DNA of 64,000 nt from Pyronema omphalodes. Lineage: Eukaryota > Ascomycota > Pezizomycetes > Pezizales > Pyronemataceae. The position numbers and the translations under genes are program-made. The notes under the pieces were generated by a model, which was given only the letters and a program-made list of their open reading frames with translations, had not been told where the DNA came from and made no database searches. The stretch spans positions 434,001-498,000 of the forward strand of contig JAJJXM010000007.1 in NCBI GenBank assembly GCA_024516155.1, in the 5' to 3' direction. Shown in pieces: positions 23,485 to 29,345 of the stretch (positions are counted from its first letter, which is position 1; the number at the start of each line of letters is the position of its first letter).

Positions 23485-25130
23485 ATGAGTGTATGTCTCT
23501 TGTCTTTGTCTCTGTCTCCCCTTGACGCGTCGGAACTCTCAGGAGCACCAACAACAACCTAAGATTTACCTACAGACGACTAACACTACTGTGCGCCATA
23601 GGGTTACGGGTATGTCCAATCAATTCTCTGAGCCATTTGGAGGCAAGCGATAGTTGTAGTCACCTTCAGCATCTTCGATTCGGTCGTGTTGTGCTCTATC
23701 GTTCCCGATCCCTCGCTTCCGTGCTATTCCGGCAAGTACGTGGAGTTGGCAAGCGCTGACGACGATATCTCCACAATAGTAATAATCCCTATGGGTCGAA
23801 CCCATACGCCCAGCAAGACAACACCTACGGAAACCCGTACGGTGGCCAGCAACAAGGTATGCTACTTCCTTTTACCTTCCTTTTTTTTTTTTTTTTTCCT
23901 CCACCGAGAGCTATTCGCATCCGTGGAACCAACAAATTCTGTGGATGGGATAGAAGTTGATTTGCGTTTTTTTTACCAATTTTTCCGAGACTAAGTTGAA
24001 CCTTACTCGCCTCTTAATTCAGGAGCAAACAATTATGAAATGGGAAACATGAACCCCGGCGCTGATCAGGGCTACGCCGCCCCTCCTCCTGCCGCCGCCC
24101 CCGCCGGAAACGACCCCCAGGACTTCTACCAAGAGGTCGACGACATCCGTAGCGGAATCGATACTGCGAACGCCAACATTGCCCGTATTGAGCAGCTCCA
24201 CGGAAGATCGCTTAATGACATTGACGAGGCTGCCCAGCAGCAGACCCAGCGTCAGTTGGAGCAGGCTGTCGCCGAGACCTCCGCTTTGAACAAGGACCTC
24301 GTTATGAGAATCAGAGTTCTCAAGGGAAAGGCTGTGAACGACCCCAGCATGGCTCCCCAGATCAATGTTTTGGACAGAAACTGCAAGGAGATGCTCCGGA
24401 AATATCAGCTTGTGGAAAAGACCTTCGTCGACAGAACTAGAGATCAGATGGCCAGACAGTACAGAATTGTCAAGCCCGATGCCACTGATGAGGAGGTTCA
24501 GGCGGCTTGTGATGATGCTGCAGGAACTCAGATTTTCTCCCAGGCGGTATGTTTACAGAAAAATATGGCTCAGAATCATAGCTAATGACTCTCAGCTTCT
24601 TAACGGAAACCGTCGTGGTGAAGCCCGCTCTGCCCTCCGTGAGGTCCAGGCCCGTCACAATGAGATTCTTCGCATTGAGCGTACTATTATGGAGCTTGCC
24701 GAGCTCTTCGAGCAGATGGAACAAATGGTTATGGAGCAGAACGTCATGGTAGAGGCGATTGCCGAGCGCGCAGAAGCCGTCCACCGGGACGTAGTTAAGG
24801 CGGACGAAGAGCTAGGACAGGCCGTCGACAAGGCACGGTCCGCCCGTAGAAAGAAGTGGTGGTGTCTCCTCATCATTAGTGAGTTTACCCAAGTTTTTCT
24901 TAGCATCAGTTTTGCTTTTTATGATTTTTCTTTTCTTTTTCCCTTTTTCTTTTTGCACTGCATGAATCATGGGATCCCTTTTCCCTACAGCGTTATTACG
25001 CAGTACGGATAAAGTAACAGCTTTGGTGTCTTTTTAACCACCCCCCCACAAAGTTTTAATACTTTGTGCTATCGCTGCTATCGTCGCTGCTGTGGTCATC
25101 ACCCAGCAGCGAAAGAAGAATTCGCCCTAG
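23485..25130 (+). CDS. SSO1: Plasma-membrane t-SNARE syntaxin (Sso1/Psy1 type), isoform with proximal terminal exon A
   Basis: Exons 23485-23490 (6 nt), 23602-23609 (8 nt), 23780-23856, 24023-24546, 24596-24878 and terminal exon A 25054-25130 give 975 nt (324 residues). The two microexons and exon 3 encode a Gly/Asn/Pro/Tyr-rich head (MSGYGNNPYGSNPYAQQ). Exon 4 holds the Habc regulatory domain (DFYQEVDDIRSGIDTANANI onward). Exon 5 holds the SNARE motif from ALREVQARHNEILRIERTIM with the zero-layer Gln at about residue 253 (VMEQNV), then the basic juxtamembrane ARRKKWWC. The membrane anchor is split at codon 300 (phase 1); exon A completes it as ILILCAIAAIVAAVVI followed by a short basic tail. 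Syntaxins on the target membrane pair with SNAP-25 and synaptobrevin homologues in exocytosis. Two further frame-compatible anchor exons lie downstream. Confidence 0.93.
24991..25037 (+). other. Possible soluble alternative tail of the syntaxin
   Basis: An acceptor TTTTCCCTACAG at 24990 is preceded by a strong pyrimidine tract and is also phase-compatible with the exon 5 donor. It would add TLLRSTDKVTALVSF and stop, giving a syntaxin without a full membrane anchor. It may be a cryptic site only. Confidence 0.3.
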
Positions 25131-25379
25131 CCTATGGGAACGGACCACCGAACCAAATCGAACCTCTTGAGGATCTTCGTGGACGAGTCGAGCCGGCTGC
25201 GAAGCCAAGGGATCCTATATTTTTTTTAACCCTTTATCTATCCTTTGCCCTACCCCGGATTTTCGGTATCACCCTACCTATATATACTATAGACCGTCTT
25301 TGCGTTTCGCAAATATTGAGATGAAAAAAACAAATTCCTAACGGCTGTAATCCCTTTTATGGGATTGGGTCATCTGCAG

Positions 25380-25444
25380 TATTCATTATCGCCGCCATTA
25401 TCATCCTCGCTTTGGTACTCACCAAAGTCAACGGCTTGTGGTAG
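25380..25444 (+). other. Alternative terminal exon B of the syntaxin gene (second transmembrane anchor)
   Basis: After CATCTGCAG (25371-25379) and a CTAAC branch point (TTCCTAACGG, about 25336), the sequence continues the exon 5 frame at phase 1. It encodes FIIAAIIILALVLTKVNGLW after the shared Ile, then TAG. With the shared CLLII this makes a complete 19-20 residue membrane helix with a short tail different from exon A. The isoform would be 320 residues. A chance open stretch that is this hydrophobic, of this length and in phase is unlikely. Confidence 0.75.
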
Positions 25445-26012
25445 ACGGTTATTTCTTTGTGTAGCGGACCCTGTTTCACAGCAGAGTGCCTTATCAAGGA
25501 TATAACCCTCTACCCTAAAATCATTCCTTTTTTTTTTCTTGGCTCTCTCTCTCTCTCTCTCTATCTTCTTCTTTTTTTGAAGCTTCTTGTCTGTCTTATC
25601 ATAATTGTCTTTTTCCTTTTTTTTTTACATGCGGGGTCTTAATACCGGGGTTTTTTATGTCTTTTTTTTTCGTTTTTGCTTGTCTTATTAGACATATTTC
25701 TTTTTTGTCCAGTTTGGGGGATACTGTTTTTTTTTTTTTTTTTTTCTTTTCTTGTTTTCACATCATTCATTCATTCAATTTTTTTCTTGTTCGAATTCAC
25801 TACAAAAATCCCCTCTTACTTATTATGTGAGAGTTTTTTTCTTCTTCATTCTCATTTTCTCATATCTCATTTTCTCGTTTTCATCTCATCTCACCCCCGG
25901 GACCCTCCAAACCCTTCAACCCCCCATCCCACCACCGTGACTCCCAAAACCCATAAAAAGAAGAGAAACAGATATACTAAACATCCAACCCCGTGTTATC
26001 AAAATCTTATAG

Positions 26013-26218
26013 TCGCAATTATTGTCGTCATCGTCATCATCGTCGTTATCGTCGTTCTATTGAACCAGAGAAATAGTGCGGCCGCTGCTCCCCCGGCTAC
26101 TACTGTTACTGCTACCCCGACTCCTACTGTTGCCGCTGCTGCCGATGCCGCGGCTGCTACGCCTACGAAAGCACCCGAGCCTCAGGTTGCGAAGAGAGAG
26201 GCTTTGTGGTTGGTGTAA
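26013..26218 (+). other. Alternative terminal exon C of the syntaxin gene (third anchor with extended outer tail)
   Basis: An ATACTAAAC branch point (about 25974-25982) and acceptor ATCTTATAG (ending 26012) precede a phase-1 exon. It encodes AIIVVIVIIVVIVVLL after the shared Ile, then a 51-residue tail rich in Ala, Thr and Pro (TVTATPTPTVAAAADAAAA) ending KREALWLV and TAA. The isoform would be 367 residues. A tail of this length beyond the anchor is outside the cytosol and unusual for a syntaxin; its Thr/Ser/Pro content suits O-glycosylation. The required intron is 1134 bp, far longer than others here, as expected for a distal alternative exon. Confidence 0.65.
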
Positions 26219-28578
26219 GGTGTAAGGAGTGGGGATTGTAAGGAGTGGGGATTGTAAGGAGTGGGGATTGTAAGGAGTGGGGATTGTGAGGGGTGGGAGG
26301 GGTATTGTGAGGGGATTGTGAGGGGATTGTGAGGGGATTGTGAGGGGATGGGGGTGGGAAAGGGGGTGGGGCTGAGGATGGGCGTAATGGGAGGAGACTG
26401 TGGATATGTGGATATGTGGATATGTGCGAGTAATGGGAGCGTGGGAGTAATCAGGCTGCTGGAAGAGAGGGATGGGAGGAGGGATGGGTATAGGGATCTC
26501 GATACTTGGTACTTGTCACTTGGTACTTGGTACTTTTCATTTCAGTTTTCAATTCAGTTTTTAATTGGCAATTGGTAAATTTAATTCTCTGTTTCTCTGA
26601 GAACAACAGAAAACAAAACACAGAAGACAAAACACAGAAAACAAAACACAGAAAAACAGAAGACAAAACACAGAAACAGAAAATGGTGTGTTGTCGGCTT
26701 TATCTGCGAATTTGCGAATCCGCGAACCTGGAAATCGAATCAGAAGGAAGGAAAATAAATAAAACCAAACCGAAACCAAAGTCAAAGTCAATATGTCTAA
26801 GGTAGAGAGGGAGGAGGGAGGGGGAGGAGCGGGGGGGGGGGGGGGGGCATAATTCACAAAAATAAAAAAATAAAATGGAATCAATTCGAATAGTGTGATA
26901 GTGTGATAGTGTGATAGTGTAATATAATCTACATGTATGTATAAGGAAGAAGATGGGGAGGTAGCTGGCATGAAAGGGCGAAGGGGCAAGGGAAAAGCAG
27001 GAAAAGGGGATTCAAGGGTTATATTTTTTTTCTTTTTTTCTTCTCTTCGTCTTTTTTCTTGTTTCTCTTCTTGTTTTTTTTCTTTTTCTTCTTTTTCTCT
27101 TTTCTCTTTTTCTTCTTTTTTTCTCGCTTTTCTACTTTTTTCTTCTTTTTCTTCTTGTTTTTCTAATTTTTCTCGGCTTTCCCGTTTTTCTACTTCTTCT
27201 TTTTCTCTTTTTTTCTCGGTTTTTCTACTTTTTTTTCTTCTTCTTGTTTTTCTACTTCTTTTTTTTCGTCTCTTTTTCTACTTCTTGTTTTTCTACTTCT
27301 ACTTTTTCTCGTTTTATTATGTTCTATTCCATACCTTTTGCAGTAGTTTATATAAAGGATTCCCTTTTCAACCATTTTCTCGTTTCCTGCTTATTTATTA
27401 TTCCCATGCCTTTTTATTTTATTCCCATGCCGTTTTATTCCCATGCCGTTTTATATTCCCTTCCCATCCCATCCAATCCCCTCCCTTCCCATCCCATTCC
27501 CTCCCATTCCCTCCCATTCCATCCCATCCCATCCCTTCCCTTCCCTTCCCATCCCTCCCATCCTCCCCCCCCCTCTTCCCACCTCCCCCATTCCATTCCC
27601 CCCTTCTTTTCTTCAAGTTTATTCCTTCCTTCCCCAGTTCCTATCTTACATCCTTTACATCCGTTATATCCTTTTCGATTACTTCATTCCTCTATTTCCA
27701 TTTCCATTTCCATTTCTATTTCTATTATCAAGAATTCCAGTTATTATTTTTTTTTTTACAGTTTCGATGTATAATTCTCAGGGCCCTTAATTATTGATAT
27801 GTATTGGCTTTAAAAATTTTTGGTTAAATTTCGTGGAAGATACTTGAGATACTTGGGATACTTGAGATACTATGGTTCTATGGTTTTATATGTTTTGTTT
27901 TATTGTTTATAGGTTTTGTTATTTCATCTGTTTAAGCATACAAGTGAGAGGAAGAGTTAAAGGGAATTTATCATCGCGATCCAATATTTTCTGTGTGTGT
28001 GTGTGTGTGTGTTAATTTTGGGTATGATTGGAGTCGTGTGATTAGATATGATTGATAAGATAAATATGCTGGTTTTTGATGAGCTTTTTGATCAGAGCTT
28101 CAGTTTTGATATGATAATATGATGATATGATATGATACGACGATAGTCTGAACTTGAAAATAAAAAAATTCTCAACGCCCGCTGATAATGAAAAAAAAAA
28201 AGGATTTTACCCTGCATGATTGATACAAACCCAATTTGTTTCAAACAAATACAAACCTTTTTTATCTTTTTTTTTCTTTCAATTTGGTATTGTTTTTTTT
28301 TTCTTACCAGGTTTATCCCCACCGTCAAAAAAAAAGAGAAACTTCCCCTTCCTAAACCTAAAAATCTCTAATCCACCATTCCCCCCCCCCCCCCCCCCCG
28401 CCCCCCTTCCCCCCATCCTAACCTCACAGTGACAAGACAAAAGGGCCGTATATATAACGCGTAAAGTAAATGTCGTCATTAAAAGGCCATGTCGCCGCAT
28501 GGAGATTATGTTTTACATCCTTTCATCTATACCCCTCTTTCTTTCACCCAACCCACCATCACCAAACAACTCTACTCT
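26219..28578. other. Intergenic low-complexity stretch
   Basis: TAAGGAGTGGGGATTG repeats (26222-26287) and GTGAGGGGATT repeats (26283-26345), AAAACACAGAA repeats (26600-26690), a G run (26829-26847), about 300 bases of TTCTTTTTC pyrimidine tract (27020-27320), CCATCCCATCCC tracts (27455-27600), a TG repeat (27992-28012) and a C18 run (about 28381-28399). The long frames in it are products of composition. Confidence 0.6.
26222..26287 (+). repeat. 16 bp tandem repeat TAAGGAGTGGGGATTG, 4 copies
   Basis: Four exact head-to-tail units beginning just after the stop of syntaxin exon C, grading into GTGAGGGGATT units. Confidence 0.9.
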
Positions 28579-29345
28579 TTACCGACCCTGGAAACCCGGA
28601 GGAGGAGCACCAGGGAAACCTCTTCCAAACCCAGGTGGTGCCTGGAATCCTGGAGGTGGCGCACCAGGGAAACCAGTAGGAGGAGCCCCAAAACCTGGTG
28701 GACCCTGACCAAGACCAACATTTCTCATCGGGCCCTGAAGACCACCTGGGGCAGGGGGGGCCAATCCCATAATTGGCAAACCTCTTCCAGCAGGTCTAGC
28801 AATACCGGGGCCGGAGGTGACAGGGGTAGCACCAAGACGGGTGCTAGGATCAGCAGCAGGAGGTCCCTCGACCGACATAGAAATGATATGGTGACCACGG
28901 AGAATGATGAGACCGAGGGTACGCTTCTCCTCGACGATTGTGGAAGCTTGGTTTGCGGCGGCTTTCGCGGGCTTACGCTTAATACGACGGAATTCTTCGG
29001 TATCGGCGAGAACGACGTTCATGTGCTATATCGAGAACGCGTTAGCTTTTCTGAGGGAGCACGCGACGTGAATTTCATGAACACGTACCTTGTCAAAGGC
29101 CAACAAAGTTCCGGTGAGCTGACGACTATCAGATACGGTTACCCGCATCCTGTAGTTGATCTTTAAAGGTATATGTTAGTTTCATATGTTTCTTGACAAA
29201 AGTTGAGATAGCAGTTTTGCAGCTGCTGAAGGTGGAGTAGTTACGTAGTTAGCCTAGCAATTGTTAGCATCTGAACAGTCAACGTGATTGTTTAGAGGTA
29301 GAGAATTGAGGGGGTGCAAACCATTTTTCCTTGTTGTTTCGACAT
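28579..29345 (-). CDS. SMB1: Spliceosomal Sm core protein B (SmB/B')
   Basis: Exons 29345-29322, a 9 nt microexon 29253-29245 (Ala-Asn-Tyr), 29160-29089 and 29025-28579 give 552 nt (183 residues). The product begins MSKQQGKM-ANY-INYRMRVTVSDSRQLTGTLLAFDKHMNVVLAD (Sm1 motif), then TEEFRRI and the Sm2 motif LGLIILRGHHIISMSVEGPP. A Pro/Gly tail repeats GFPGAPPPGF units. The microexon supplies exactly the three residues the family has between KM and INYR. SmB is one of seven proteins in the Sm ring on U1, U2, U4 and U5 snRNAs. Introns are 68, 84 and 63 bp; the first donor (GTTTGC) is non-consensus. Confidence 0.93.

Follow-up and report, generated by a model that had tools for sequence, protein, structure and literature searches.

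A plasma-membrane syntaxin gene with three candidate last exons

The 64,000-nucleotide stretch of the Pyronema omphalodes genome analysed here (the window; assembly size 60.8 Mb, 232 contigs) carries a syntaxin gene on its forward strand, and all parts of the gene given below are on that strand. Five exons, spanning 23485–24878, give one open frame after splicing. Exon 1 (23485–23490, donor GTATGT) would encode only Met-Ser, with boundaries drawn from the reading frame and the N-termini of relatives. The splice model continues with exon 2 (23602–23609), exon 3 (23780–23856), exon 4 (24023–24546), which encodes the Habc domain (Pfam Syntaxin, 29.8 bits, cut-off 26.7), and exon 5 (24596–24878), which encodes the SNARE motif (Pfam SNARE, 33.8 bits, cut-off 26.8) and the start of the membrane anchor, CLLII. 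In a search against solved structures the best relatives were five yeast SSO chains (E 1e-34 to 2e-28), with SSO2 (1e-34) and SSO1 (5e-32) the closest and all five ahead of syntaxin1 (6e-12) and syntaxin-1A (3e-10). By Pfam and by this comparison, the product of exons 1–5 plus an anchor is a Qa-SNARE of the plasma-membrane Sso/syntaxin 1 type, and its family suggests that it resides in the plasma membrane.

The top public protein is a t-SNARE of Pyronema domesticum, 90% identical over 86% of the query and 98% identical across 247 columns of the body, whose public model runs into the intron without splicing to an anchor. Five public models of the same syntaxin (P0001, P0014, P0016, P0017 and P0019; from Pyronema domesticum, Sphaerosporella, Tuber magnatum, Ascodesmis and Geopyxis) have C-termini that appear to be misread, through either a read-through intron or a frame-shifted anchor exon. 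The assembly also holds a second, diverged syntaxin on contig 146 (46% identity over query residues 3–160), whose anchor lies within one exon and ends NQGASNSAPKRKREVAWGDM. A long array in which the 9-bp unit tataaatcc is repeated in tandem (L010:5080-5750) lies about 300 bp behind this paralogue.

Exon 5 stops at a GTGAGT donor (24879–24884) one base into an Ile codon, and three downstream acceptors each finish that codon, open the rest of an anchor and lead to a stop of their own. Exon A (25054–25130; acceptor ACAAAG/TTT, the slash marking the junction) completes ATT and ends in the basic tail TQQRKKNSP and TAG; exon B (25380–25444; CTGCAG/TAT) completes ATA and ends in TKVNGLW and TAG; exon C (26013–26218; TTATAG/TCG) completes ATC and ends in a 51-residue Ala/Thr/Pro-rich tail and TAA. 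The predicted A, B and C isoforms have 324, 320 and 367 amino acids, each with a single C-terminal transmembrane anchor of 19–22 hydrophobic residues counted from the shared Cys (21, 19 and 22, respectively). All three exons are intact and in phase, and their long hydrophobic runs are unbroken. The initial annotation, made from the sequence alone, had described this arrangement, and it was borne out: the donor base by base, the three in-phase acceptors and their stops in every coordinate and peptide, and the hydrophobic runs (16, 14 and 17 exon-encoded residues) together with the tails (TQQRKKNSP; LTKVNGLW; the 51-residue tail). Its claim of a branch-like motif before each exon holds for B (CTAAC at 25338) and C (TACTAAAC at 25975) but hardly for A, where the only candidates are GTAAC at 25014 or TTAAC near 25034; exon A thus combines an AAG acceptor with a poor branch motif. 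From A to the next exon there are 249 nt and from B 568 nt, distances compatible with the 3' UTR lengths reported for Pyronema confluens (mean 281 nt, median 200 nt; PMC3778014), and we counted this in favour of separate terminal exons.

A 16-bp tandem repeat, GTAAGGAGTGGGGATT, begins directly past the stop of exon C (four copies, 26220–26290), and every copy holds a donor-like GTAAGG. We also considered, and rejected, the idea that exon C is a piece of a neighbouring plus-strand gene: in a scan for ORFs of at least 130 aa between 26218 and an Sm-like minus-strand ORF (28579–29025), the plus-strand frames, up to 289 aa long, look T-rich and of low complexity. Elsewhere among fungal syntaxins, the external tails of P0031, P0040 and P0080 are long, contain KR[SA] and finish in an HLP[QH]-like sequence, a loose resemblance to the KREALW of exon C.

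Tail classes in relatives and the odds of chance

Tails were taken from 120 listed proteins of the 659 found by homology search, and most of those we classified fall into three classes. The W class (eight rows: P0002, P0004, P0005, P0006, P0008, P0009, P0013, P0020) mostly reads ...TK[VI]N[GH][VLM]W and includes truffle, morel and Wilcoxina among its named members. The LVN class (six rows: P0003, P0007, P0010, P0011, P0012, P0018; Rhizina among those named) reads ...L[VI]N[KQR]K, in some cases with a Ser/Thr/Pro tail. The ITQ class (nine rows: P0021–P0024, P0026, P0027, P0035, P0041, P0042) reads ...[IV]TQV[VI][NQ]K; its named members include Kalaharituber, and P0041, from Chaenotheca, groups with P0042. 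P0015, P0025, P0029 and P0030 stand outside the three classes, and P0175 (ITQ, from a second search) was used in trees only. In two further proteins from MAGs, P0028 and P0046 (Icmadophila and Caeruleum), the syntaxin anchor continues directly into a PF04117 (Mpv17/PMP22) protein; this is either a gene fusion or a model artefact. The classes were drawn by eye once the exons of the window were known, which weakens any test built on them, and they were regrouped once: the first labels, A/B/C, lumped the two basic classes as 'A', and splitting these into ITQ and LVN shifted P0003, P0007 and P0012 from the exon A side to the exon C side.

Profiles of the classes were searched with HMMER, using composition correction, against 11,712 candidate exon peptides drawn from a 400-kb genomic null and from 24879–26400. 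With the W profile exon B led (E 1.2e-7, the runner-up at 1.6), and the LVN profile placed exon C first (7.7e-5), followed by A (0.14), B (0.76) and the best null peptide (1.7). The ITQ profile also put its own exon, A, first, with a weak E of 0.18 (next 5.7). Exon A had ranked 8 on the first mixed profile, and a profile of the 17 pooled basic tails placed exon C first (0.0021) and exon A at rank 76. Uncorrected scores were dominated by simple-repeat peptides; B was still first and C first or second on LVN profiles, and with the ITQ profile A fell to rank 11, behind repeat peptides, with C at rank 6. The pattern [AVIL]{3,}TQ.{1,4}K[KQ], written after exon A had been seen, picks out exon A alone among the 11,712 peptides. 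When the anchor of the diverged paralogue served as query, exon C came first with correction (E 0.01) and third without it.

At the protein level, then, tails of all three kinds occur in relatives, and every class has a different exon of the proposed three-way cassette as its top hit, with a weak score for A. That three classes pick three different exons appears to us the stronger part of the profile test, and on these comparisons B and C seem better supported than A. The initial annotation had treated A as the main exon and B and C as doubtful; the order is now reversed, with B recorded for truffle, morel and Wilcoxina, C matching well and A the weakest of the three. The conservation of B and C that it had asked about is suggested by the protein-level profile matches (1.2e-7 and 7.7e-5, respectively), whereas the exon C frame searched directly against public proteins returned 1344 candidates, none at E <= 1e-3.

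Could some of these exons be nothing more than hydrophobic frames thrown up by T-rich DNA, with only one or two of them real? The local sequence does generate such frames, as shown by two Phe-rich ones of similar hydropathy in phase 0 of the same stretch (24894 and 25583, from poly-T; phase 2 has none) and by others in phase 1 slightly under our threshold (24904, 24910 and 25834, at about 2.6); moreover, A is weak in homology and C low in complexity. We counted frames with an AG, phase 1, a stop within 110 residues and, over 16 residues near the start, a mean hydropathy >=2.8. Sampling 20 pieces of 10 kb from this genome and reading both strands (400 kb) gave 26 such frames, or 0.087 per 1340 nt, against the three at the locus (3.39, 2.89 and 4.16). 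Among 500 dinucleotide shuffles of 24879–26300 the mean was 0.01 and none reached three. None of exons A, B and C is rich in Phe. Together with the placing of three different exons first by three classes, the genome null and the local shuffles make a chance origin in T-rich DNA unlikely, and we give a mixture of real and accidental exons very little weight.

Conserved elements in the last intron

Several read-through ORFs of other fungi read GIPFP past the donor or, in a different frame, MGFLYP. Both fit one 17-nt element, ATGGGATCCCTTTTCCC, which lies upstream of exon A in the window (E1, 24969–24985); the conservation is thus at the level of DNA and not of protein. E1 fits five of 12 read-through ORFs: P0160, P0137, P0152 and P0163 with 0–1 mismatches (0/500 residue shuffles as good) and P0190 with two (4/500). 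Given that P0152 is closely related to P0163, and that P0160 is Pyronema-like, these represent about four independent lineages, the window included. In the other seven of the 12 ORFs the fit was not significant (shuffles as good, of 500: P0145 494, P0154 445, P0001 497, P0014 452, P0017 457, P0019 334 and P0195 136), although P0001 stops before the expected site and P0154 may do so, and P0014, P0017 and P0019 are annotated models that are perhaps spliced; the copy in P0195, good by eye, was discarded on its shuffle count. The 15-base core of E1 has one exact copy in the assembly and four more with one mismatch. E1 occurs in ORFs near a B-type product (P0152/P0163, near P0008) and near an LVN-type product (P0190, near P0007). 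P0152 and P0163 also read ARK after the shared anchor start, which makes a GT donor at the usual place impossible; the donor may be GC. GC donors are often linked with alternative splicing.

Behind exon A lies a 12-bp complement of E1, AAGGGATCCTAT (E2, 25207–25218). The predicted E1:E2 helix has 12 bp with one G-U (-19.3 kcal/mol); a helix as good arose in three of 1000 dinucleotide-shuffled copies of the A-to-B gap and in four of 1000 of 25054–26012. A third element, the hairpin AATCCCTTTTATGGGATT (E3, 25349–25366; -13.0 kcal/mol when 45 nt are folded), lies between the branch motif and the acceptor of exon B, and because ATCCCTTTT is common to E3 and E1, E2 could pair with E3 too (7 bp). 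In a 601-nt fold the hairpin of E3 itself dominates, with E1:E2 a minor pairing (summed pair probability 0.23) and E2:E3 at 0.02. The core of E1 is palindromic, so E2 could just as well be another copy of a site bound by a protein. In P0137 the sequence past the anchor exon allows an E2-like GGGATCCT, but this is not significant (13, 60 or 117 of 500 shuffles, according to the length taken).

The initial annotation's reading of the last intron had missed E1 and its possible partner E2, and its list of acceptors, sound as far as it went, had overlooked a good fourth one: CCCTACAG (24983–24990, AG at 24989–24990). An exon from 24991 would end ...CLLIITLLRSTDKVTALVSF, without an anchor. It is conceivable, and to us a sizeable minority possibility, that E1 is kept as an acceptor and not as a pairing element, the adjoining CCCTACAG either yielding a soluble, anchorless syntaxin or acting as a decoy that weakens exon A. 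Read from their sequences, the residues past E1 in P0137, P0152, P0160, P0163 and P0190 permit an AG at the matching place, and the window's own product would be the anchorless one ending ...CLLIITLLRSTDKVTALVSF. They permit it without forcing it, however, and the conserved GGGATCC lies upstream of what an acceptor needs.

Exon choice and comparison with known syntaxins

To place the window among its relatives we used a body tree of 24 rows with tails removed and the earlier A/B/C labels. There the window belongs to a starred eight-row clade (95/93) that also contains three W members (P0002, P0006, P0008) and four LVN members (P0003, P0007, P0011, P0018), a mixture that we count in favour of the cassette, and the tail labels need four changes on this tree where the minimum possible is two. 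The record of each listed relative has one tail only, and none of them has two. On the one hand, a single anchor per record is also compatible with lineage-specific replacement, in which each lineage uses a single anchor (here most likely B) while A and C are hardly or no longer spliced; the low number of label changes and the divergence of exon A from its class also fit such turnover. On the other hand, the protein database was clustered at 90% identity, at which isoforms would be merged, so that the argument from one tail per relative loses force; all three exons here retain their phase, acceptors and long hydrophobic runs; and E1 is retained in B-type and LVN-type lineages alike. We consider turnover, the main rival to co-use of the exons, improbable, though a good deal less so than chance frames. 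Many of the listed relatives are unbroken frames on contigs of 1.2–3 kb, which are presumably transcripts.

Two exons within a single lineage are best supported by morel-like sequences. Morchella sextelata P0009, a gene model, has a B-type (W) tail, and the genomic read-through ORF P0137 matches P0009 at 86 of 89 exon-5 residues (78 of 89 for the Tuber-like P0005). Past E1, P0137 continues into a hydrophobic exon, one base out of frame, with a forced stop. Worked out from its residues, its last codons permit only [TM][QPLR][TM][QPLR][KR][KR], so that this exon cannot be W and is compatible with either ITQ or LVN. The two sequences belong to different genomes. Scans of viral and genome contig collections with a nine-sequence alignment found no DNA of related loci.

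We favour, with reasonable confidence, alternative last exons with B as the default and A and C as options. In the last intron, three acceptors would compete for one donor. Behind each lies a terminal exon that would complete the anchor and supply an external tail and a stop, with space left for a 3' UTR. Splicing, probably coupled to the choice of poly(A) site, would give every mRNA a single anchor. By default this is probably B (TKVNGLW), the anchor that several relatives have, and A, with its short basic tail, and C, with its long Ala/Thr/Pro tail, would be alternatives of kinds that relatives also use. The gene, its exons and phases, the matches to tail classes and the conservation of E1 come directly from the sequence comparisons; co-use of the exons in one species, the RNA switch and the function are what we infer from them. 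Such isoforms would have the fusion machinery in common but not the length of the anchor or the external tail, so that differences in sorting, lateral placement or fusion behaviour are most likely. A candidate switch is pairing of E1 with E2, which would loop out A and favour B.

A fuller version of this scheme, which we regard as unlikely in its entirety, would make the locus an old three-anchor cassette of the Pezizomycete plasma-membrane syntaxin with a complete E1/E2/E3 switch. The site behind A would pair either with E1, looping out A so that B is made, or with E3, masking the acceptor of B so that A is made; the protein would be held in the membrane by the truffle-type anchor, by the short basic one or by the long Ala/Thr/Pro one, and the acceptor beside E1 would give an anchorless fourth form. 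Competing RNA structures of the Dscam type are a related kind of exon choice.

If alternative anchors are indeed used, the same anchor-swapping solution arose or persisted outside animals, and hyphae would offer a simple system for asking what the anchor and external tail of a SNARE do. It would also account for the failure of several public models of this gene at the C-terminus, with the conserved intronic element as a direct handle for testing regulation. In the open literature, and among the matches listed, we found no fungal syntaxin with alternative anchors. RNA-seq and a single case of light-dependent splicing, that of frq, are described in the P. confluens genome paper, whose main text uses neither syntaxin nor SNARE as a term (PMC3778014). 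Several plasma-membrane syntaxins in one fungus are on record, Yarrowia having three SSO genes (PMC2241642). As described there, these are separate genes, and we set them aside as a splicing precedent: yeast Sso1/Sso2 and the Yarrowia SSO proteins belong to the same family, whereas here the variants would be terminal exons of one gene.

For the putative pairing, short intronic complements around an exon promote its skipping, as described for a 13-nt pair in C. elegans zip-2 (PMC8330042). That pair has been demonstrated, whereas the 12-bp E1:E2 helix is predicted, with conservation for the E1 side.

The nearest parallels are in animals, where the alternative C-terminal syntaxin forms mentioned by the initial annotation are described for unc-64 and mammalian syntaxin 2 (PMC4946901). 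The splice forms of syntaxin 2 differ in their membrane anchor, and two forms are given there, against three candidate terminal exons here. In C. elegans unc-64, the alternative last exons 8a and 8b switch the anchor between neuronal and other tissues, and their choice is governed by intronic binding sites and the CELF protein UNC-75 (PMC4946901). The locus described here resembles unc-64 in that one syntaxin gene has same-phase terminal exons, here predicted from the sequence, each with an anchor and a stop. As described, the two unc-64 anchors are both 25 residues long and differ in their last 14, whereas the fungal gene has three candidate anchors of different lengths and with different tails.
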